Positions 24,040 through 37,489 of a DNA stretch of 60,051 nt are shown here, in pieces. The notes beneath the pieces were generated by a model that did no database searches, was not told the DNA's origin, and was given only the letters and a program-made list of their open reading frames with translations. Every line of letters begins with the position of its first letter. The first letter of the stretch is position 1. The stretch is from assembly GCA_030017955.1 (NCBI GenBank), contig JASEGR010000007.1:1-60051 (forward strand), in the 5' to 3' direction. The DNA comes from Candidatus Eisenbacteria bacterium (GTDB lineage Bacteria > Eisenbacteria > RBG-16-71-46 > JASEGR01). The position numbers and the translations under genes are program-made.

Positions 24040-24255
24040 TCAGGCCCCGCCCCAGCCAACCTTCACATTTCCTTTTTCGACGATTACCGGGACAAGCCTT
24101 TTCCCGCCCGAGAGCTTGAGAAGTTTGTCGATTTCACGAGGGTTCTCTGTCACGTTTATTTCACTGTATTGAATTCCTCTCTTCTCGAAATCCTCCTTTG
24201 CCGCCTTGCAATAAGGGCAACCGGTTTTTGTGTAGATTACAACTTCGGCGTTCAT
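24040..24255 (-). CDS. Glutaredoxin-like redox protein (possible UXX-star family)
   Basis: 71 aa with a thioredoxin fold. The redox site is TKTGCPYCKAAKEDF at about residue 10, the cis-Pro is in RLVPVIVEKG, and the protein ends GWGGA. The unusual short length and the VPVIVE…GWGG end resemble the UXX-star glutaredoxin-like group, in which some members carry selenocysteine at the first Cys; here it is Cys. That subgroup call is from memory. The ATG overlaps the stop of the radical SAM gene (ATGA), indicating coupling. Confidence 0.8.
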   Translation of the reverse strand: MNAEVVIYTKTGCPYCKAAKEDFEKRGIQYSEINVTENPREIDKLLKLSGGKRLVPVIVEKGNVKVGWGGA

Positions 24256-25466
24256 GATCTCCTCTCCCTTCTTAACGCCAGAGGGTTCGTGCGCAGTTCC
24301 TCCTCTGTCAGGTAACACGCGGGATCCTCAGCCCATACGTCGCCGAAGACCGCCTCGGCCCTCACTCTAAAGTTCCCGTTGCAGATATCAAGGAAAGCAC
24401 AGCTTCCGCACTTTCCTTTCAGCAGATGCTTCCTATCTTTTAGCCCGCGAAGAAGAGGGTCGCTCGTGTCAGTCCAGATATCTCCAAACGTCCTCTTCCT
24501 CACGTTGCCGAGACTGTAGTGTGTCCAGAATTGGTCAGGATGAACATTGCCGAGATAATCGACGTCGGCAACCGCGATGCCGCTGCTGTTCCCTCCATTC
24601 CAGAGGAGAAGCTCATAGACCTCCTCGGCCCTTTCGGGGCTCTCCGAGCAAACTCTCTTAAGGAGGTAAACTCCGTCCGTGTGATTGTCCACTGTCAGGA
24701 GCTCAATCTCCAGCTTTTTGTCACAGAACTCGATGGCCTTGTCAAAGATAAGATTCACTGCTTTCCTCGTCTCATCGTGCGTCAAGTCATCTTCAACAAG
24801 CTTTGAGCCCCTTCCTGCGTAAACAAGATGATAGAAACATGCTCTTGGGATCGACTCCTTTTCCAGGAGTTCGAGAATTCCTCCCAGATCTTTCAAATTG
24901 TGCTTGTTCAATGTGAATCTCAGGCCGACCTTCACCCCTTCGTTCTTCAAGTTCCTTATGCCCTCAAGTGCCTCGTCGAATCCGCCTTTCTTGCCTCTGA
25001 ACTTGTCGTTCGTTGATCTCATCCCGTCAAGACTTACCCCGACATACGAAAACCCTGTCTTTCTTATCGCGGCTGCGACATTACCTGTGATCAACGTTCC
25101 GTTTGTCGAGATAACGACTCTTATCCCTTTCTCGACTGCATGACTGCCAAGTCTGAATATGTCCTTCCTCAGAAGCGGTTCGCCGCCGGAGAACAAGAGG
25201 ACCGGGACTCGGAATTCAGCAAGGTCATTAATGAATTTCTCACCTTCATCTGTCGTGAGCTCGCCCGCATACACCCTATCCTTTGATTCAGAGTAACAGT
25301 GGATGCAATGAAGATTGCACCTATTGGTCATGTTCCAGATGACGATTGGTCTTCTGTCTGCGGAGAACTGCGTAGGACTTAATGGAGAGTCTGCGCTTTT
25401 TCGCCCGTACCTCAGGGTATCCGAAGGTGCGTCTATGCCGCAAAGGAGTCTTGTCACTCCGATCAT
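24252..25466 (-). CDS. ahbC: Radical SAM/SPASM protein, AhbC/NirJ-like
   Basis: 404 aa. The N-terminal segment APSDTLRYGR is characteristic of AhbC/NirJ enzymes, and the radical SAM cluster motif is CNLHCIHC (CxxxCxxC). The TIM-barrel markers FSGGEPLLR and ISTNGTLI follow. The C-terminal SPASM-type cysteines are in CGSCAFLDICNGNFRVRAEA. AhbC removes acetate side chains of didecarboxysirohaem in the alternative haem pathway; NirJ acts in haem d1 synthesis. No other haem genes are near, so the exact reaction is open. Confidence 0.75.
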   Translation of the reverse strand: MIGVTRLLCGIDAPSDTLRYGRKSADSPLSPTQFSADRRPIVIWNMTNRCNLHCIHCYSESKDRVYAGELTTDEGEKFINDLAEFRVPVLLFSGGEPLLRKDIFRLGSHAVEKGIRVVISTNGTLITGNVAAAIRKTGFSYVGVSLDGMRSTNDKFRGKKGGFDEALEGIRNLKNEGVKVGLRFTLNKHNLKDLGGILELLEKESIPRACFYHLVYAGRGSKLVEDDLTHDETRKAVNLIFDKAIEFCDKKLEIELLTVDNHTDGVYLLKRVCSESPERAEEVYELLLWNGGNSSGIAVADVDYLGNVHPDQFWTHYSLGNVRKRTFGDIWTDTSDPLLRGLKDRKHLLKGKCGSCAFLDICNGNFRVRAEAVFGDVWAEDPACYLTEEELRTNPLALRRERRS

Positions 25467-27363: not shown

Positions 27364-27392
27364 TTGACGAAAGGACCCTAATATGCTATAAT
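27364..27392 (+). promoter_or_regulatory. Near-consensus sigma-70 promoter
   Basis: TTGACG, exactly 17 nt, then TATAAT, preceded by AACAAATA. It drives the structured leader and probably the small secreted protein gene at 27814. Confidence 0.8.
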
Positions 27393-27397
27393 AAGTT

Positions 27398-27580
27398 ATT
27401 GAAGAATGCTTGATGGGCAGGTAGTCCTGCTGCAGTGTTCCGGAGAGGATATCTCCGATGCGCGCGAGAAAGGTCCTTTGGGGCGGGAGGACAAGAAGAG
27501 CCGGATCTGAGTCGAGCTTTTCTCTCTCCGCAAATCTCTGTCAGAAAGTAAGCCGTGGGCAAATGAGCTCACGGTTTTTT
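27398..27580 (+). ncRNA. Structured leader or small RNA, no family recognised
   Basis: The roughly 180-nt transcript would contain hairpins GCAGG-tagt-CCTGC, CGGAGA-ggata-TCTCCG and GTCCT…AGGAC before a terminator. It could be a riboswitch-like leader of the gene at 27814 or a separate sRNA. I could not match it to a known riboswitch, 6S, SRP or tmRNA pattern. Confidence 0.5.
27551..27580 (+). terminator. Rho-independent terminator or attenuator
   Basis: A 10-bp stem (AGCCGTGGGC with GCTCACGGTT, two G-U pairs), 6-nt loop and a run of six T. It lies between the strong promoter and the gene it should serve. Confidence 0.75.
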
Positions 27581-27813
27581 GTTTCCTGAGGAAATCCAGA
27601 TCATGAAAGTGCGCTTCGCGCCGGGTTCCGAAAAAGAAGGGCGCTGACAGATTCCAGGAGTATCAGAACAACTGGATGGGAGTACATCCAGATGATGCGG
27701 TTCGGCCGCTCCGGTTGGCGGTGACGAGGTACAAGGATGATGAGCATAGACGCTAAGAGCAAGGCACAACTCAAACGGAAGATAGATTCACACAAACACA
27801 AGGAGGTGTAATC

Positions 27814-28182
27814 ATGTCTAGATCAGCAGGAGAATCGGGCATTAGGGCGGCTGTGATGCTGTTGTTTTCTGTTTTTGTCCTGGCTGGTCTGAATATGACG
27901 CAGGCATACGGTCAGCCGCTTGACTCGCCGCTTTACAATCATACAAAGACCGAGGTTGTTGAGTCCATGAATGGTCCCTCTGAAGATGGTCCGGTTAGCC
28001 CTAGCCCTATGGGTACGTATTTACCAAGTTCTTGTTATACTGGTGCTTGTGGCCATCTTACCGATCGAACATGCATTTGCCCGGTGGACGCACCAGTAAT
28101 GTCTCCTCCTGGGGAGACTGTGTTTATCCTTATACTCACTGGCGGGGCATGCTGGGCCATCATCAGAAAAAAACACTCCTGA
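27814..28182 (+). CDS. Small secreted protein with C-terminal sorting anchor (putative exosortase substrate)
   Basis: 122 aa of no family I know. Residues 11-33 form a signal peptide (AAVMLLFSVFVLAGL… ending AYG). The mature part is short, Pro/Ser-rich, and has four Cys in 16 residues (74-89). The C-terminal end is tripartite: a PPGET motif (98-102), a hydrophobic helix (103-117) and a basic tail RKKHS, the layout of proteins processed by exosortases. It differs from the known PEP-CTERM and IPTLxxWG motifs. A strong AAGGAGGTG site lies 6 nt before the ATG. Downstream genes include an exosortase, so I infer it is the dedicated substrate. Confidence 0.6.
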   Translation: MSRSAGESGIRAAVMLLFSVFVLAGLNMTQAYGQPLDSPLYNHTKTEVVESMNGPSEDGPVSPSPMGTYLPSSCYTGACGHLTDRTCICPVDAPVMSPPGETVFILILTGGACWAIIRKKHS

Positions 28183-28204
28183 ATTCAGCTAACACGGGGT
28201 CGAC

Positions 28205-28239
28205 TCAACCAAGGTTGAGATGGGACACGTCAGTGTCCC
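28205..28239 (+). other. Two adjacent hairpins after the small secreted protein gene
   Basis: TCAACC-AA-GGTTGA and GGGACAC-GTCA-GTGTCCC, both perfect. No T-run follows, so these may act in mRNA processing or partial termination before the large membrane genes rather than as a terminator. Confidence 0.5.
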
Positions 28240-28340
28240 AGTCTGATGTTATTGTGCTCATTGGCACTCGGCTGTTAGGGCACATCTATGTGTGATGTTG
28301 ATAGGGGTGCCGCAGATCTTGTTGAGATGCCTTTGAGTCT

Positions 28341-30743
28341 ATGACAGACAAGAGTAGGTCTTTTCCCCCCCATGATGATTTAGCGGTATGCGTAGGAGCA
28401 ACGCTGCTTTGCTACGTTACCCAGTCCCTAGCCAACAGCTGGGGGATTCGCACGAGCGGGCTAAATAACCTGCATATTTTTGTTCTCTCCATAGTTTTCC
28501 TGGCTCTTTACTTTGACCGAAGGATACCTTTGTGGAGTACGCGAAGATTGGCAGGTCTTGCGCTCGCTGCGCTCACTCTAGGCATTGAACTTCGCTGGAA
28601 CGCCCCTGAAAGATTGGTGCTGCTGCCTGTTTTTGTAGTTGCAGCCGGTCTGGTCAGCACAGCAAAACAGGATAAGAATCGGGAGACTGTGTTTATCGTT
28701 CTTTCACTCACCTGTCTCTGCTATTTCCTAATATTTCTGCTGCTCCGGCATCCTTTGGTGAACCAGATTGTCACCAAATCCTGTCTGGATTTCTCCTTTG
28801 AGCTTAGCCGGCTCTTCGCAAAAGAGGTCAGACTTGGGCCCACTTGTCTCGGGCTTTCGACGACACTTTTTTTCCTGTCGTTTTCCTTGATTGCCTTGTT
28901 GTTTACTAGCGGTATGCGCCGCCGTGGCCTGCTTGCTATCTTCGGAGTGGTTGCCACGATACAGATGTTGGCCCTGTGCTTGCGCACCCCTGCGATCTAT
29001 CCGATCTTGTACGGCGTCACATTCGCGATAGTACTGAGCAAAGTCACTGTTGGCCGCCCTCCGCCATCTACGGCCTCGGTTCCCCTTTTGCGAATTGTAC
29101 CCGTCTTCGTGATAACTGTCTTCTTAGTGATTTTGGGATCCGGCGGCGCGCTGCGCACTCATTCGGGCCAGCCGCGCCCCGGCCGCGTTGTAGTTTATGC
29201 CGATGGAGTGCTCCAATGGAAAGACCGCGGCGGGACAACAGAAGGAGAGAAAGAGAAAGCGGCAAGAGACTTTCCTGCTTTTGGAGGGCTAAGCCACTAT
29301 CTGAAACACCTCGGCTATTCGTTTGAGCTTTGCAGTTCTCCGATTCTGCCCTCACAGCTTGATTCAACTCGTATATTCATGGTGATCAACCCGACGCGTA
29401 TGCTGACGCAGGCTGAGCGTGAGGCAATTTGGAAATTTGTCCGTTCAGGCGGTTCCCTGCTTGTGCTTGGAGACCACACAGACATATTCGGCATTCAAAA
29501 GCCACTCAACTTTCTGTTGGAACCTATTGGAATAGCATTTAACTTTGATACGGCGTATCCCCTTGGTCCAAGGATGTCCTGGCAAGGGGCACTTAACTCA
29601 TGGCCGGTCGGATTTGCGCGAGTTGCGGAGGACAAAGATACGAGAATCGACGTTGGAGCTTCCCTGTCCGTCCCAAGGCGCGCCATACCGGTTTTCATAG
29701 GACGTCATTCGTTCTCAGATAGAGGTGACCGACTTAACCAAACCCATGCCTACCTAGGCAACAAACAGCTTGATCCGGGTGAGCAAACGTGTGACCTGGT
29801 GCTGGTTGCACTTGCATTTTCAGGTCATGGGAAGGTTCTCGTTTTTGGAGACACCACACCTTTTCAAACTGCTGTGCTGACGCAAAGTTACGGCTTTGTT
29901 GCCAACGTATTTAACTATCTCAGTGCCCCAGATGGCGTGCCTGACATGGCCCGGTATCCAATCATCCCGGCAATTATCCTCGTCCTGGTCTTTCTATTAC
30001 CAGTCATCGTGAAACTTAAACCCAGCATGCTGGCTGTCCTACTGTTTTCTCTGGCTGCGGGAGCGGCAGCCTTTGTAGCTACTCCGGGCACGCAAGCACC
30101 TGATTCTGTATCTCTTCCATCGCCTCTCGCCTCTTTTGATATGACCCACGGGGCCAACTATGGCCCTTTTGGAGAGGACGATGGACTGGATGAGTTTTTC
30201 GGCTGGCTTTACGAAAAAGGACTGCCTCCGATTCTATCCAACCGGCAACTTGCTGAACAAATGAAGAGCTCTCATGTTGTATTTATGATAGCGCCCGAAT
30301 TGCCAGTTTTAAAAGCTGAGGTCAGGTCGATGCGAACTTTTATTAGGGAAGGCGGATTAGTTGTTATGAGTGCGGGGGCTGACCATGGATATAGTGCCCA
30401 AAGAGCCCTTCTTGAGTTTCAGTATCGAATCGAGGAACGGCCATTAGGCAATGCCCCGGATGCCAAGGCTGTATGGACGTCAGGACCGGTGACCTTTTCT
30501 TCTGCCTGGCCGGTTTACTCCATTGGAGGAGAAGATAAGGTGCTCTGCACAGCCTGGGGATATCCCGTGATAAGGTATCGGCCAATTGGCCAAGGCGGAC
30601 TGCTTGTAATTGGAGACGCGGGGTTTTTTTTCAATAAGAACCTAGAGACCTCGGCCGTCCCGGATTTGCATAGAAACAAAGGCGAGATGTTAGAGTTTAT
30701 TCAGGAACTCTTGGACCGCCGCCCTAAACTTGAGGACAAATAA
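28341..30743 (+). CDS. Giant membrane protein: exosortase-like core plus two DUF4350/GATase-like domains (paralogue 1)
   Basis: 800 aa. Residues 1-265 are a bundle of about eight membrane helices. Within it PTCLGLS (167-173) aligns with the PECTGV Cys motif of the exosortase at 33302, and R215 lies 46 residues later, near the catalytic Arg spacing; no His is found at the expected place. Residues about 280-510 form a Rossmann-like DUF4350/GATase-type domain (INPTRMLTQAEREAIWKFVRSGG, then DHTDIFG). A membrane hairpin (about 540-580) and a second such domain (about 600-790, FMIAPELPVLKAEVRS) follow. The stop directly precedes the next ATG. Function unknown; I infer a pseudo-exosortase partner. 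The exosortase assignment rests on hand alignment. Confidence 0.55.
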   Translation: MTDKSRSFPPHDDLAVCVGATLLCYVTQSLANSWGIRTSGLNNLHIFVLSIVFLALYFDRRIPLWSTRRLAGLALAALTLGIELRWNAPERLVLLPVFVVAAGLVSTAKQDKNRETVFIVLSLTCLCYFLIFLLLRHPLVNQIVTKSCLDFSFELSRLFAKEVRLGPTCLGLSTTLFFLSFSLIALLFTSGMRRRGLLAIFGVVATIQMLALCLRTPAIYPILYGVTFAIVLSKVTVGRPPPSTASVPLLRIVPVFVITVFLVILGSGGALRTHSGQPRPGRVVVYADGVLQWKDRGGTTEGEKEKAARDFPAFGGLSHYLKHLGYSFELCSSPILPSQLDSTRIFMVINPTRMLTQAEREAIWKFVRSGGSLLVLGDHTDIFGIQKPLNFLLEPIGIAFNFDTAYPLGPRMSWQGALNSWPVGFARVAEDKDTRIDVGASLSVPRRAIPVFIGRHSFSDRGDRLNQTHAYLGNKQLDPGEQTCDLVLVALAFSGHGKVLVFGDTTPFQTAVLTQSYGFVANVFNYLSAPDGVPDMARYPIIPAIILVLVFLLPVIVKLKPSMLAVLLFSLAAGAAAFVATPGTQAPDSVSLPSPLASFDMTHGANYGPFGEDDGLDEFFGWLYEKGLPPILSNRQLAEQMKSSHVVFMIAPELPVLKAEVRSMRTFIREGGLVVMSAGADHGYSAQRALLEFQYRIEERPLGNAPDAKAVWTSGPVTFSSAWPVYSIGGEDKVLCTAWGYPVIRYRPIGQGGLLVIGDAGFFFNKNLETSAVPDLHRNKGEMLEFIQELLDRRPKLEDK

Positions 30744-33233
30744 ATGACACGTCTGCTATGGCTTCAGGCTGCTCTGATTGCAACCGCAGGAATGTACACC
30801 GCTTGGGGAACATGGGCTGGCGACTCCGGATTCTCCCTTGCCCTGGCAGCGGCAGTTGTCCTGCCGCTGCTGGTATTTCGTTCCGTTGTAACCGTAAGGA
30901 TAGCTCCATGGGTTTACTGCGCGACCGGCGTAATAGCACTCGTCGGTCTCTTTGTTCCACCGTGCCGCCTCCCATCCGTACTGCTGCTGGCGGGGATGAT
31001 TGCTTTTCTGGTTGCGCGCCATGTGCCTCGGGCTGGGGCTGCGGCCCTCGCTTTTTCGCTCACCGGCCTGATGTTACAGGCGCAGAACATTGCGCTATTT
31101 GCCTACGCGAAGTTCGAGGCTCGCTATCATGCATGGCCAACAACCCGTGCTGCCGTCACATACATCCTTCGACTATGTGGTATACATGCAAGTGTTGATA
31201 CGGAGGGGATTTCAATTCAGGGAGCCGAGCGGACATTGCAGGTGGATGTAAACCCTGAGATGTTGGGGCTCAGGTTCTTTCTGGCCTTTATGGTATGTGG
31301 CCTTGTTCTTGTCTTTTTGTTCAGGCGAGAAAGAAGGGGGCAGACCTTTCTATATCTTCTAATAAGCGGGGCAGCATATATGCTGCTGCGTTTTGCATAT
31401 CTGACATATCTCTATCCCGAAACCTCGTCACTCAAGATCTTCTCTCACCCCGGATGGACCTTTGCTACTTTTCTCCCTTTTGTCGTTGCTGTTGCCCGAC
31501 TTGTCGCGCTTGACAATCCCGGCGACAAGTTGGAACTGGGCATGTCGATGGGTAGCATGCGACCCTCTGTCATACCGTGGGCACTAATTGTCCTGGCAAG
31601 CTACTCGTTGGTGACTGCTCTTTTGTTCGTTGACCCGGGTGAAAAGAAAAACGGGCGCATCCTCATTGATGAGGGACACAGCGATTGGGAGTGGACGACC
31701 ACACCAATGGATACGGTTTCATTCGGGCAAGGATCTACTTACAACTACTTCTGTCTGAAACGGCTACTTGAGCACTATTACCAGGTGAACACAACCAGGC
31801 AGGACCTCAACATAGACCTTCTCTCACGCTACGATATCCTCATTGTGAAGACCCCGACTCGCCACTATTCGCGTGACGAAGCCGATGCGATTGAGGCATT
31901 CGTCCGAAACAGTGGGGGGCTCTTTCTTATTTCGGATCACACGGACGTGTTTGGAATGACGACGTTCATCAATCCGATTGCATCACGTTTCGGCCTAGAA
32001 TTCCAGAGGGATGCCACTTTTGACCTTGACTCAGGAAAGTTTTCCATCTTTCAGCCGTGGATGGCATTGCCACACCCAATCATCCGCGACGTAGCTCCTC
32101 TGGTATTCCTGACAACCTGCACAATTGACTCACCACTAAGGAGTCAGGACGTTATTACTGGACGAGGGCTCGGCACAGAGCGGCCGGACTATTCAACAAG
32201 AAATTTCTTAGGGGACAGCGAGAAAAGGCGGCCAATAAAACCTCAATTTGGTGCGTTTCTCCAGTTGGTGGCCGTTCTATTCGGGCGGGGTCGGGTCGTT
32301 GGCTTTACAGATAGTACTGTCTTCTCCAGCTTCTGTCTCTTCATGCCCGGTAAGAGCGAGCTGTTGCTGAACACTATTGGTTGGCTCAACCGTCGCAATG
32401 TCTATTATTGGGTCCAACCCGTTTTGGGAGGCGTTGGCTTGGTGATGATCTTGCTATTGTTTCCTATAATCTGGAGGCGCATAGCCACAATCACGGTTCC
32501 CGGACTTATTCTGGCAGTATCCTTCGGTCTTGCAGGCGGGTGGCTAACCGCCGACGTGGTAGGGGAAATTTCATATTCTCGTGTGCCAGCAAGAATCCCA
32601 TACGCCAAGGTATGCTTCGAAGTGGCACACTCACCATCTGTAAAGTCAGCGTTCTTCGCTCCGCGGCGGCCCGAACCAGACGGCTACACGACCTTTTATG
32701 CATGGGTGCAGCGGCTGGACTTGACTCCGGCGGTTGCCGATGGTCTTACCGCTTGCGCTGGAGCAGACATGGTTGTCATCTTGGAACCAACACGGCCATT
32801 TGGAGAAGCTGATGTTGAATGGCTCATACGTTATCTTCAAGAAGGAGGAAAGGTGCTGCTGCTCGATGACCCGCGGAACCTCTCTTCCACCGCCGAGACC
32901 CTTCTAAAGAGATTCGGACTTCTGACCACACGTCACCCTGCACGCCGGACCAAGCTACAAATGGTTGGCAGTTCAGAGCAGATTTGTGACGTCAATAGTA
33001 GTCGAACAATCACCGGCGGCGATCCGTGGATCGTCACCACGTCAGGAGATACAGTTGCTGCTGCAATATCTGTGGGACGAGGAAAATTGGCGGCCATGAT
33101 TCAGTCTTCCATTTTTACACAAGCACATATGGGGGAGTACACGGCAAACCCGAATGAAAACCAGCTACGAATCAGCCGTCTTGAGTTCTGGTTATTGAAC
33201 AAGATGTTGGAGGCCGGTCCGAGGGACAATTGA
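30744..33233 (+). CDS. Giant membrane protein: exosortase-like core plus two DUF4350/GATase-like domains (paralogue 2)
   Basis: 829 aa, starting immediately after the stop of paralogue 1. The same architecture repeats: helices to about residue 298, a soluble domain (304-560) with TPTRHYSRDEADAIEAFVRNSGG and SDHTDVFG, two membrane helices, and a second soluble domain (about 620-820). In the exosortase-like core the Cys is replaced by Met (PEMLGL, 171-176), while Arg216 and His235 keep the 19-residue spacing of the canonical enzyme. The shared DHTD(I/V)FG motif shows that both large proteins are paralogues. Arginine codons are mainly CGN, unlike the nuo genes. The role is unknown. Confidence 0.55.
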   Translation: MTRLLWLQAALIATAGMYTAWGTWAGDSGFSLALAAAVVLPLLVFRSVVTVRIAPWVYCATGVIALVGLFVPPCRLPSVLLLAGMIAFLVARHVPRAGAAALAFSLTGLMLQAQNIALFAYAKFEARYHAWPTTRAAVTYILRLCGIHASVDTEGISIQGAERTLQVDVNPEMLGLRFFLAFMVCGLVLVFLFRRERRGQTFLYLLISGAAYMLLRFAYLTYLYPETSSLKIFSHPGWTFATFLPFVVAVARLVALDNPGDKLELGMSMGSMRPSVIPWALIVLASYSLVTALLFVDPGEKKNGRILIDEGHSDWEWTTTPMDTVSFGQGSTYNYFCLKRLLEHYYQVNTTRQDLNIDLLSRYDILIVKTPTRHYSRDEADAIEAFVRNSGGLFLISDHTDVFGMTTFINPIASRFGLEFQRDATFDLDSGKFSIFQPWMALPHPIIRDVAPLVFLTTCTIDSPLRSQDVITGRGLGTERPDYSTRNFLGDSEKRRPIKPQFGAFLQLVAVLFGRGRVVGFTDSTVFSSFCLFMPGKSELLLNTIGWLNRRNVYYWVQPVLGGVGLVMILLLFPIIWRRIATITVPGLILAVSFGLAGGWLTADVVGEISYSRVPARIPYAKVCFEVAHSPSVKSAFFAPRRPEPDGYTTFYAWVQRLDLTPAVADGLTACAGADMVVILEPTRPFGEADVEWLIRYLQEGGKVLLLDDPRNLSSTAETLLKRFGLLTTRHPARRTKLQMVGSSEQICDVNSSRTITGGDPWIVTTSGDTVAAAISVGRGKLAAMIQSSIFTQAHMGEYTANPNENQLRISRLEFWLLNKMLEAGPRDN

Positions 33234-33301
33234 GCACAGTTCGGCTTGGGGGTGAACTCCCGGAAGTTGTCTCTAGGGAGGTCTGATAAGAGCCTGGACC
33301 A

Positions 33302-33856
33302 ATGCGAGCCCGATTTTCCAGCAAAGCGAAGCCGAAGAAGAGAAGCACCTTCTTTCCCCAAGTAGTCCGATTCCTCGTAATTTTCGGCCTCACCTGGGGT
33401 GTGCTTCACTCGCTTACTATCATTTTTCCTGGTGCCCTCCAAAGGCTCTGCGTTTTCCATGCTAGGATTACGTCTGTTGTCATATCCATTTTGGGAGGCT
33501 CGTCGGGAAGCCAAGGCACCCTCATCTTTTTCCCGAAATCTGTACCGGTCGTCAATGTCATTCCCGAGTGCACTGGAGTCTTTGCCATGAATGTGCTGGC
33601 AGCCGCTATTGTGGCTTTTCCTGCAACCTTCCTTGCAAAGGGCGTAGGCATCGGTGTGGGCGCTCTACTGATTTTTGTTCTCAATATCATAAGGCTCCTC
33701 GTGATGTTAGTTGTCATCAGATACTTGCCCAGGTACGAAGAGTTACTCCACGATTATCTCTGGCAATTTATCTTCATCGGTTTTATCGTGCTGACTATGA
33801 AAACCTGGACAGATTGGGCGGGAAAGGTTGAAAAAAAGTCTGAGCTTTCTGGGTAG
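33302..33856 (+). CDS. Exosortase/archaeosortase family transpeptidase
   Basis: 184-aa polytopic membrane protein with the complete exosortase catalytic set: Cys90 in VIPECTGVFAMNVLAAAIVAF, Arg131 in LNIIRLLVML and His150 in ELLHDYLWQ. The family cleaves C-terminal tripartite signals at the outer face of the inner membrane and is thought to transfer the protein to a lipid or glycan. The ECTG…FPA and NIIRL segments recall the exosortase H branch, but the usual IPTLxxWG substrates are not seen. Its 3' end overlaps the next gene by 29 nt. The likely substrate is encoded at 27814. Confidence 0.85.
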   Translation: MRARFSSKAKPKKRSTFFPQVVRFLVIFGLTWGVLHSLTIIFPGALQRLCVFHARITSVVISILGGSSGSQGTLIFFPKSVPVVNVIPECTGVFAMNVLAAAIVAFPATFLAKGVGIGVGALLIFVLNIIRLLVMLVVIRYLPRYEELLHDYLWQFIFIGFIVLTMKTWTDWAGKVEKKSELSG

Positions 33857-34448
33857 ATTCTTTGTCGCGGCGATCCCACTGTTCACCCTGTGGCATTTCG
33901 TTTCGTACTATTATCTAGTTCTCATGGCCAAAACCGCAGGCGTTTTCTTTCATATTCTGGGCTACGACAGTTCAATTCTCGAGGTGTCAAGCAAGACTGT
34001 CTTGATATCCCTGGCTCATGGGGGATTGCGGGCGTCTCTTAACCCGTCTATGACTCTCGACAAACTTCCGCTAAATCTCGTCTTCTTCATTGCCCTGGCA
34101 TTTGCCACCGGGCACAGAAAACTGAAGCGGACTGTAAAAGGAATTTCTTACTCTGTTCCCATTTTCTTTGCGCTGCACGTCCTGACCTACGTGTTATTTA
34201 GTCTCCATTCATTCCACAGCGGAGTCCTGGAGGGAAGTCTCCACCGGGAGACGATTCCACCCTATGTCCTCTTCCCCACCTTGTTTCTGCAAGGTCTGGC
34301 TCCCGTCCTGCCATTCCTGCTCTGGTTTCTTCTGGTGCCGGGAGGTCCCTTGTACGATATGAGGGAGCGGAGACTCAAGATTGCGGCAAGAGATATCGCA
34401 AAGGGGGATAGAAAGAGGTTCAAGAAGACATCATCTCAGAAGAATTAG
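33828..34448 (+). CDS. Exosortase-associated membrane protein
   Basis: 206 aa with about five or six membrane helices and a strongly basic C-terminal tail (KIAARDIAKGDRKRFKKTSSQKN). The segment NPSMTLDKLPLN sits where the active-site motif would be in an exosortase-like fold, but no Cys/Arg pair is present. Its position directly after the exosortase resembles the membrane partner found beside exosortase H. The start is TTG at 33828 with GGGAAAGG just before it, inside the exosortase gene. It overlaps the convergent beta-propeller gene by 18 nt. Confidence 0.6.
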   Translation: MKKSLSFLGRFFVAAIPLFTLWHFVSYYYLVLMAKTAGVFFHILGYDSSILEVSSKTVLISLAHGGLRASLNPSMTLDKLPLNLVFFIALAFATGHRKLKRTVKGISYSVPIFFALHVLTYVLFSLHSFHSGVLEGSLHRETIPPYVLFPTLFLQGLAPVLPFLLWFLLVPGGPLYDMRERRLKIAARDIAKGDRKRFKKTSSQKN

Positions 34449-36308
34449 TCTCCCGGCAGAGCTTCTTCGCTCTCCGTCGAGCACGAAAAAGTAAACACCC
34501 GATTTGACCAGCTTCCCCCGTTCATCCTTCCCGTCCCAGCCAAGATGCCTTCTTCCTCTGGGAAGCCATGAGCTGAGGAGCTTTCTCTTGAGCCGTCCGT
34601 TCGAGTCAAAGAGTGTGAGCGAATAGTATCCGTCTGCGGGAATGTCGAGGATTACATCCAGCGGAAAAGCAGTCAGCGGATTGGACGGAAGGAAAAGACG
34701 GAGTGAGGAGAACGTCTCGCTGATCCGGCTCGGGACGGCATCAACCACGACCGGGCCAAGATAGGAAACCATCGCGTCGTTACGCACAGCGGCGATTCTG
34801 TAGCAGAGTTCGTGTCCCGAGAGAATGCCGGTATCAAGAAACGTGAAAGCTCTCCCATCGCCGGAAGCTTCCCCTACACTGGGGAAGACTGTTCCGATTC
34901 TTGTGAAAGAATCTTCGCCACCTCTCTTCCTTTCGACAGAGAATGAGAGAAAACCGTGCGGCCTTGCCTTCCACGAAAGGAAGACGCCCTCTTCTCTGGA
35001 CGAGACTTCAAAATCCCAGAGGTCAACCGGCGTTATATCTTCCCACCTTCCGACCTTTCCCCAAATCCTCAGTCTGGCATAGGGCGCTTGAGTGCTGCTG
35101 GACCAGACTACCAGAAATCTCCTGTCGTTCCCTGGAAGTTCGACTCCCGAGATAACGGGCCAGAGATCATCGCCGGCTCTGTCAGCGACCAAAACGCCAT
35201 CTGGATCAAGCACGCTCCCAGACTGAGTTACTCTCGCGGCAAGTATGTACGAGTTCTCACCGATGACATTCCGCCACACGATGACGAAGACTGTGCCGTC
35301 AAAAAATATTGATGGCCTCTCGCCACAACCTGCCACGCTCGAGATAACTATTCCATCCCTGTCAAGCACTTCACCCTGCGTAGAAACCCTGGCGCAGCGA
35401 ATTAGCTGGTGTCTCGGATTAGTATCATCCTCCCACACGACGAGAAAGTTTCCGCCTCCGAAAGCAACCTTGGGAGCCCAGTGAGCGCCGGTCCCGGATG
35501 AGATCAGTATTTCGCCAGGGGAAAGAACCTGCCCGGCCGGGCTTACGATCTCTCCTCGAATGTCAGAATCCGCCATCGACCTTTGCTCCTGCCACACAAC
35601 AAGGAAATCCTGTCCGTCAAATGCAAGCCCCGGGTATTGGTGACTCACTGCTCCTGAGCTTATCTGGATTTCGTTGGGATCAAGCACCTGACCCGATTGT
35701 GTCACCCTCTGAAAGAATAGTTGGCTGTGCAAATCTTCTCCCTCGTCTTGCCACACAATTACAAAGTTAGTTCCATCAAAGGCAGCGGCAGGGGGACCGT
35801 GATAGAAACCCGTTGATAAAGGAATGCCATGCGGCGCCAGGACTTCGCCGCCCCGGCTGACCGGCGAGAAATAGAGCTCTCTGGTTCCGGTTCGCTGGTC
35901 TGCCCAAACCGCAAGGAAGCACGAATCGCCTGCGCAGAGACAAGGAACTCCCTGAAAGTCAACTTCTCTTATGATGGGAAGAGCTGTCGAGTCGAGCAGT
36001 TCTCCTGAAACCCCGACTCGGGAAAAATAGACATCCGAATGCGCTCCGTTTCTGTAATCCTGCCACGCTACCAGATAAATGCTTTCACTGAGTGCAATTG
36101 CTGGGAATCTCTCATCGAAACCGGTGCTGTCGGCGCGCGTCGTGTCGACCAGAAATTCTCCCGCAGAAAGAATGGACGCAAATGAAGTTTCAGGAATGAG
36201 GCCGGAACGCATGAGCGGTTGGCTGTAGAGATTAGGGACAACAACTGCGAGGCCGGCGATGATGGTAAGGCAGAGGGCAACTATCGAACGTCTCTCGGCG
36301 CCACGCAT
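34431..36308 (-). CDS. Secreted beta-propeller-like protein with C-terminal sorting domain
   Basis: 625 aa. A signal peptide (RRSIVALCLTIIAGLAVVVP) is followed by six or seven repeats of the type F(L/V)VVWQD…GEILAPDGI(P/L)IS, typical of WD40-like or beta-propeller surface proteins. A fibronectin-like module (about 440-530) and a FlgD-like C-terminal domain ending SGVYFFVLDGERRSSAGRLILLR come next; this end matches type IX secretion cargo. Upstream codons to 36380 belong to the MITE, so the start is the ATG before RGAERRS. The IS-truncated gene at 5685 is a relative. Ligand unknown. Confidence 0.85.
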   Translation of the reverse strand: MRGAERRSIVALCLTIIAGLAVVVPNLYSQPLMRSGLIPETSFASILSAGEFLVDTTRADSTGFDERFPAIALSESIYLVAWQDYRNGAHSDVYFSRVGVSGELLDSTALPIIREVDFQGVPCLCAGDSCFLAVWADQRTGTRELYFSPVSRGGEVLAPHGIPLSTGFYHGPPAAAFDGTNFVIVWQDEGEDLHSQLFFQRVTQSGQVLDPNEIQISSGAVSHQYPGLAFDGQDFLVVWQEQRSMADSDIRGEIVSPAGQVLSPGEILISSGTGAHWAPKVAFGGGNFLVVWEDDTNPRHQLIRCARVSTQGEVLDRDGIVISSVAGCGERPSIFFDGTVFVIVWRNVIGENSYILAARVTQSGSVLDPDGVLVADRAGDDLWPVISGVELPGNDRRFLVVWSSSTQAPYARLRIWGKVGRWEDITPVDLWDFEVSSREEGVFLSWKARPHGFLSFSVERKRGGEDSFTRIGTVFPSVGEASGDGRAFTFLDTGILSGHELCYRIAAVRNDAMVSYLGPVVVDAVPSRISETFSSLRLFLPSNPLTAFPLDVILDIPADGYYSLTLFDSNGRLKRKLLSSWLPRGRRHLGWDGKDERGKLVKSGVYFFVLDGERRSSAGRLILLR

Positions 36309-36322
36309 TGACGTACCCGCTA

Positions 36323-36538
36323 GTGTCGTGTCCCGGAAATTCCTTGTATATGTCTTTGCCCCGGGACACGACACTTTCATAGGCGCTCCTCGCCCCTCTG
36401 ACGCTTCTGGATGCTCCTACTCGTCGCATCCTTACACTGTCACCCCTGAGGGGGTCGGCCACGACCCCCTCATACCCCCTGGCAGTGTGCCTTATGAAAC
36501 ACCCTGCATTTCGTAAAGCTATTTCTGGGACGGCACAC
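36323..36538. mobile_element. 216-bp MITE-like element, copy 1
   Basis: Bounded by GTGTCGTGTCCC and GGGACGGCACAC (imperfect inverted ends) and flanked on both sides by TA, as for IS630/Tc1-type insertion. Inside are a 14-bp hairpin GTGTCGTGTCCCGG/CCGGGACACGACAC and a second one, GAGGGGGTCG/CGACCCCCTC. It is nearly identical to copies at 41275 and 50908. Confidence 0.85.
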
Positions 36539-36778: not shown

Positions 36779-37489
36779 TCACCCGATGCTTATCAGCCCG
36801 GATATCCTCTGCAATTGATTTGTGAAGATTAGGATTCCCACGACTACAAGAAGCAAACCGCTCACGAGCTCAATGGCTCTGTAGTGCTTCTTCACTGCTC
36901 CAAATATCCGGAAGAACACATTCACAGCAAGTCCCGTTATGAAAAATGGAATTGCAAGGCCGAGAGAATATAGACTCAAGAGATAGATTCCCTGCCAGAC
37001 AGTTTCCTGCGTGCTCGCAATAGCGAGTATGGCGCCCAGGATAGGGCCTATGCACGGCGTCCACGCGAAAGCGAACGAGAAACCGATTATCAGGGAGCCA
37101 AGGAGGCCGAACCGCTTCTCCTTCACCTGGAATTTCTTTTCGTAGTTGAGAAAGGGTATTCGCAGAATCCCCGCCACATGAAGCCCGAAGATCACGACCA
37201 AGACCCCTGCTATCTTTGAGAAAATCGCCTGTTTGGCAAGGAGAAACATTCCGACGAACGTTGCCGAAGCTCCCATGGCAATAAAGACTATTGAAAAGCC
37301 GAGGATGAACAAAATCGAGTTCGCAGTCGTTCGTGTGAAAATCTTTCTCTCGAGAGAGCTCCGCTGCATCTCTTCGAGAGACACCCCCGAGATGAACGAA
37401 ATGTATGCCGGTATCAGCGGAAGCACACACGGCGAGAAAAATGATCCAACACCTGCAAGAAATGATGCGATCAGGTTTACTTTCTCCAT
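36779..37489 (-). CDS. ccdA: CcdA-like thiol-disulfide transporter
   Basis: 236-aa protein with six membrane helices, related to the central domain of DsbD. It carries electrons from cytoplasmic thioredoxin to the periplasm for cytochrome c maturation or disulfide repair. The two redox Cys are in FFSPCVLPLIPAYISF and WTPCIGPILGAILA. It overlaps the end of moeA by 13 nt, so both are expressed together. No cytochrome c assembly genes are adjacent. Confidence 0.93.
   Translation of the reverse strand: MEKVNLIASFLAGVGSFFSPCVLPLIPAYISFISGVSLEEMQRSSLERKIFTRTTANSILFILGFSIVFIAMGASATFVGMFLLAKQAIFSKIAGVLVVIFGLHVAGILRIPFLNYEKKFQVKEKRFGLLGSLIIGFSFAFAWTPCIGPILGAILAIASTQETVWQGIYLLSLYSLGLAIPFFITGLAVNVFFRIFGAVKKHYRAIELVSGLLLVVVGILIFTNQLQRISGLISIG

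Follow-up and report, generated by a model that had tools for sequence, protein, structure and literature searches.

Two homologous giant membrane proteins, here called A and B, and a secreted protein with an N-terminal SPLF motif form a core system of three parts, an association that is strongly supported. A and B share the same topology, are inherited as a pair and are tied to SPLF proteins in many phyla. They were found in the window (the whole stretch of DNA analysed, 60,051 nucleotides long) together with an exosortase; the exosortase itself belongs to a family already known, and the A/B-SPLF system is the new part. We rate this system as categorically new among the databases and literature searched: NCBIfam and Pfam do not represent the A/B-SPLF core as a family, and a literature search (with most subscription papers outside its coverage) found no paper on the A/B pair. 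If our reading is correct, the locus would belong to a widespread surface-protein maturation or assembly system, so far visible in databases solely through its DUF4350 domain. This system would join an exosortase bundle with the GIFT domain known from oligosaccharyltransferase and cilia (a pairing unreported in the accessible literature), would define a new motif by which a class of Cys-repeat surface proteins is recognised at the N-terminus, and would offer testable A/B loci in both domains of life.

The operon in the window

Checking the sequence and its ORFs, we found five co-directional ORFs on the forward strand, all of them where an earlier, sequence-only reading of the window had placed them, downstream of a near-consensus promoter. 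The strong promoter and the structured leader proposed in that reading were both confirmed: the former (27364-27392, +) is of the sigma-70 type (TTGACG-17 bp-TATAAT, with an extended -10 TG) and has 11 of 12 consensus matches, and the latter (27398-27590, +; MFE -74 kcal/mol) folds more stably than 199 of 200 shuffled sequences (z -2.5). From the promoter to the first gene the leader measures about 400 nt, and its structured part ends in a terminator-like hairpin (27550-27577, +; 11 pairs and a T tract), about 240 bases upstream of that gene, which may be an attenuator of the operon or the end of a short or small RNA. A riboswitch was dropped as an explanation because no Rfam family matches the leader, and a genome-wide repeat because no further copies were found in the same genome. 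The readings of the locus as a defence system (no PADLOC match) and as cargo of a mobile element or phage (plasmid and phage sequences gave no match) were likewise dropped.

The first gene (27814-28182, +), with a strong ribosome-binding site (AAGGAGGTG) before its ATG, encodes the putative substrate, a 122-aa secreted protein. As had been proposed, it combines a signal peptide with a C-terminal anchor: the signal peptide is followed by DSPLYNHTKTEVVE (the SPLF-type motif), then by a short stretch with Cys residues and by the anchor PPGETVFILILTGGACWAIIRKKHS, and the tail has, in sequence, a tripartite layout (Pro-rich stretch, TM segment and basic tail). The window version of the SPLFxxSLxxxxxxLE motif is SPLYNHTKTEVVE, and the Cys count is only 5. 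No NCBIfam or Pfam family was found above cut-off for this protein, and its own genome holds no paralogue. Downstream, the start of giant B directly abuts the stop codon of giant A, and the ORFs of the exosortase and its partner overlap by 29 bases.

Convergent to the operon, a long secreted protein with a T9SS/FlgD-like C-terminal end is encoded at 34431-36380 (-); relatives of it are found near three loci with B only (L067, L077 and L091), and the genome encodes 64 T9SS-type tails. Also near the operon (24040-25466, -, and 36779-37489, -) lie genes assigned by eye as glutaredoxin-like, radical SAM/SPASM-like and CcdA-like thiol-redox membrane proteins.

Domain architecture of A and B

Giant A (28341-30743, +; 800 aa) and giant B (30744-33233, +; 829 aa) both exceed the Pfam gathering scores for DUF4350 (PF14258, 45.7 bits for A and 53.9 for B) and IFT52_GIFT (PF23355, 40.3 bits each), and B additionally that for ABC_transp_aux (PF09822, 52.7 bits). 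A consists of an N-terminal membrane bundle, a GIFT/DUF4350 domain (about 282-528), a TM hairpin (541-580) and a second GIFT domain (597-792); B has an exosortase-like membrane domain (1-295), a GIFT domain (305-548), a TM hairpin (557-610) and another GIFT domain (622-822). The structures used are AlphaFold2 models (pLDDT 83.7 for A; pLDDT 91.6 and pTM 0.93 for B). Foldseek and profile searches matched IFT52, OST48, the beta-galactosidase trimerisation domain and ThuA, with IFT52 as the top Foldseek match for the GIFT domains of the giants (for A, Foldseek gave IFT52 and OST48). The two GIFT (DUF4350/GATase-like) domains per protein described in the sequence-only reading are thus borne out by Pfam scores, models and Foldseek. 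HHalign shows A and B to be homologous (100%) along the C-terminal two thirds of both. The positive-inside counts of B alternate cleanly, with the N-terminus inside and both GIFT domains, as well as the loop before the nucleophile helix and the face of the former active site, outside; those of A are consistent with the same plan.

The families that had been suggested for the giants gave a mixed outcome in HMM searches, since DUF4350 was found in both, while the GldG equivalog TIGR03521 (30.6 bits vs a cut-off of 389.85) was not reached and B scored 16.7 bits on the exosortase model TIGR04178, whose cut-off is 23. No NCBIfam equivalog is reached by either protein, and Pfam names the soluble domain only. 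A role as a chryseobasin/RiPP helper, raised by a ChrI match, was dropped, the match being too weak (E 0.05-0.08) and limited to one protein.

Both giants had also been said to contain an exosortase-like bundle, which held for B and, on its own profile, failed for A. In profile-profile alignments (HHalign), B matched an exosortase profile built on a classical reference at 74-83% (E 9e-6 to 3e-5) and one built on the window exosortase at 17-22%, with controls of at most 0.4% for reversed profiles and at most 0.2% for unrelated transporters. In this register, E172-M173-L174-G175 of B falls on the ECTG motif and R216 on the catalytic Arg (R131 of the exosortase); R216 is kept in 78 of the 80 rows with a residue, and the position aligned with the catalytic Cys is M in the window and K in 46 of 83 B proteins. 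Additionally, in the model of B the predicted nucleophile helix is preceded by an amphipathic helix and by a beta segment, as expected from exosortase sequences. A single-HMM search did not rank B above background. Based on profile-profile alignment, topology and motif register, we hold with moderate confidence that the membrane part of B is exosortase-like, and infer that B is a divergent pseudo-exosortase. A reached about 1% (at most 1.5%) against the exosortase profile and has no exosortase family among its NCBIfam matches, so that only its kinship and shared topology with B would make it exosortase-like, and it is solely through this kinship that A may be called a pseudo-exosortase. The Foldseek matches do not bear directly on the membrane domain, since a PDB sequence search found no exosortase structure. 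With the Cys nucleophile lost and the Arg kept, B is probably a binder of substrate or lipid and not a cleaving enzyme, and the loss counts against exosortase-type transpeptidation by B.

Invariant polar residues are found in the first GIFT domain of B (W315, Y333, K369, D398-H399-T400, R517, D523-S524-T525 and S528), and the GDHT motif of A lies at D378-H379-T380. Read from the alignment, the invariant residues of B would argue for a specific ligand or reaction. One candidate reaction is proteolysis, with A and B as a propeptide-processing pair which would recognise the SPLF segment and cut it off through outer-face residues of the GIFT domains or through the exosortase-like core. Invariant H, D, S and T residues would suit such a pair, as would the propeptide-like position of SPLF near the mature N-terminus, followed by variable sequence; nevertheless, the frequent K at the position of the exosortase nucleophile, the lack of any match of A or B to a protease family in NCBIfam and Pfam, and the fact that the GIFT relatives are not proteases make it quite unlikely.

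The recurring A/B pair and its SPLF proteins

GTDB genomes were scanned once with the B alignment, which gave 115 relatives, 80 of them kept. The archaeal relatives belong to Thermoplasmata and other euryarchaea, and the bacterial ones to Thermodesulfobacteriota, Bacillota, Bacteroidota, Planctomycetota, Zixibacteria, Latescibacterota, Eisenbacteria, Bipolaricaulota, Armatimonadota, Verrucomicrobiota, Acidobacteriota, Nitrospirota and Myxococcota (Exilibacterium tricleocarpae is a named isolate among them). A and B stand in tandem in most of 84 loci (83 besides the window), at about 21-35% identity to the window, a recurrence far beyond chance, and A precedes B in nearly all loci showing both (L097 is reversed). 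Distances between A proteins and between B proteins are correlated (r = 0.93 across 57 loci; none of 2000 permutations exceeded 0.205). In the B tree, the archaeal sequences form one group (support 100) and the window B groups with its nearest relative, L058 from a Phycisphaerales bacterium (support 93). The B proteins of L067, L077, L091 and L108 (Zixibacteria, Calditrichota and LCP-89) form a clade and have no recognisable adjacent A; at L077 and L091 the gene upstream of B is asparaginase/GatD-like.

What most often lies next to A/B is a gene for a secreted protein, which in bacteria is usually rich in Cys and built of repeats (TCxGxxTC, TCAxTC, NPMDxxC). Common to these proteins, directly after the signal peptide, is SP[LAIMV][FY] and then an xxSLxxSIxxLE-like pattern (SPLFAVRTQRSI in archaea), a shared N-terminal feature which the earlier reading overlooked. 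Of the 274 secreted ORFs that lie on the same strand as A/B and within 1.5 kb of it, 49 carry this SPLF motif, compared with 5 of 231 opposite-strand ORFs and 17 of 721 far ORFs; as it was discovered on the same loci, these strand and distance controls, and not an independent set, carry the weight. By a profile test, only two among 46 genomes of the phylum have the Cys-repeat protein, both of them with A/B, and the genome of the window is one of the two. The single substrate assumed earlier proved too narrow, since this genome contains another A/B locus, which has two substrates, together with an unlinked Cys-repeat, substrate-like protein on C110. At eleven archaeal loci (L044:13048-13995, L048:14998-16083 and 9 others), the SPLF proteins are followed by a conserved protein of about 350 aa, likewise secreted, for which Pfam gives no significant family.

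Universal helper genes were not found, a Pfam scan of 54 neighbours giving no family in more than three. This bears on the possibility that A/B resembles GldG or arCOG01314 in being a platform for non-covalent assembly or export, which would move or polymerise Cys-rich surface fibres. GldG and DUF4350 relatives, including the arCOG01314 proteins, are predicted members of secretion complexes (PMC5898192), and the substrates, proteins of the cell surface with a repetitive sequence, have SLH or T9SS anchors. Against such a platform, no conserved gene for an ATPase or a pore accompanies A/B, and the system is also present in one-membrane Bacillota and archaea, so that export across an outer membrane is not its common function; we regard the platform as unlikely.

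In relation to the known GIFT/DUF4350 proteins (GldG, IFT52, OST48/Wbp1, arCOG01314), for which sugar binding by the GIFT domain has been proposed (PMC7226087), A and B share the fold of the soluble domain, its extracytoplasmic placement and its membrane anchoring. They differ in having two GIFT domains each and a 9-TM bundle, with invariant GDHT and TDST motifs, and in lacking an ABC transporter, MoxR/vWA partners and an OST. In relation to the exosortase/archaeosortase family (TIGR04178; EpsH/PEP-CTERM), the N-terminal domain of B agrees in topology, in the beta segment that precedes the nucleophile helix and in the conserved Arg. It differs in that the Cys is missing, as for the most part is the His, in its fusion to two GIFT domains and in its pairing with A; moreover, the motif common to the A/B substrates is N-terminal and not C-terminal.

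We infer capture and maturation of SPLF substrates by A/B, and give about even chances to a two-subunit extracytoplasmic membrane complex by which the SPLF segment would be captured and the substrate modified or assembled before anchoring (the likelihoods we attach to maturation, to assembly or export and to proteolysis overlap in part). The substrate would first be exported by Sec, and its SPLF segment, probably an amphipathic helix, would then be captured by A/B on the outward-facing side of the membrane. The GIFT domains would perform or template the maturation, in which most likely a glycan or lipid group would be attached or handled, or the repeat region assembled, while the exosortase-like part of B would hold substrate or lipid. 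In the genome of the window, the matured protein would finally be cut and anchored C-terminally by the adjacent exosortase and its partner; in other hosts, SLH, T9SS-type or other tails would take over the anchoring. Several findings weigh against this maturation model. No GIFT domain has an established enzymatic activity, those of IFT52 and OST48 serving binding or structure. Archaeal SPLF proteins carry the motif without Cys repeats, so the Cys repeat cannot be the modified part in all cases. About half of the A/B loci have no SPLF protein by a strict test (partly because contigs end there), and both the membrane part of A, taken alone, and B in a single-HMM search escape detection as exosortase-like. 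A more specific version can be offered only tentatively: an exosortase-derived, catalytically repurposed heterodimer with four GIFT ectodomains would read the N-terminal SPLF and install a new post-translational modification before host-specific anchoring, in archaea and bacteria.

Exosortase and anchoring across hosts

The exosortase of the window (33302-33856, +; 184 aa) is canonical, as had been claimed, with 48 bits on TIGR04178 (cut-off 23) and the catalytic residues, identified by sequence and also present in a relative, C90 (ECTG), R131 (NIIRL) and H150 (LLHDY). It is the only TIGR04178 match in its genome and belongs to no named subclass, since the nearest ones (ArtB, 65 bits with a cut-off of 150; XrtX, 63; XrtH, 55 with a cut-off of 86) all stay below their own cut-offs. 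The partner membrane protein (33828-34448, +; 206 aa, TTG start) is distantly like the XrtH-associated membrane protein, although below the cut-off of NF041730 (22.2 bits vs 35). The small exosortase directly upstream of a membrane partner recalls the IPTL-CTERM system of XrtH; the window differs in that both proteins fall below these family cut-offs and in that no known CTERM model of NCBIfam or Pfam fits the tail of the substrate. As described in the literature, Myxosortase/MYXO-CTERM and TraA-type Cys-rich surface proteins resemble the substrate in being Cys-containing with a tripartite C-terminal sorting tail, but the membrane enzymes are different and no A/B pair is known there.

The sequence-only reading had taken the locus as a dedicated exosortase sorting machine in which A and B handle the substrate or an acceptor for the exosortase. 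The five genes do stand together in the window and the substrate tail is of the exosortase type; furthermore, the substrates of the window, L058 and L099 all have a hydrophobic stretch and a basic tail, and exosortases are encoded in each of the three genomes. The comparison across loci makes this reading very unlikely, however. None of the other 83 A/B loci examined has an exosortase homologue beside it, and the genome G097 has A/B and no exosortase match. In the related genomes G009 and G013 the pair of exosortase and partner occurs unlinked to A/B (32% and 27% identity, respectively, to the window proteins in G009). The five-gene order was not found in other genomes, only substrate, A and B recurring as a unit, and a conserved five-gene exosortase operon was therefore dropped.

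The substrates elsewhere also carry other ends: some have SLH domains or T9SS-type tails, others end in a short TTWGxxK tail, and the archaeal ones have a TM segment near the end. Such host-dependent anchors make the exosortase an add-on anchoring module, and that of the window is best read as a local anchoring module for the substrate of the system. A TTWGNLKARFK-type C-terminal tail, with no TM segment, is present in four SPLF Cys-repeat proteins (L031:6227-7718, L032:6691-7461, L064:6464-7081 and L089:3716-5131), and is possibly a further sorting signal.
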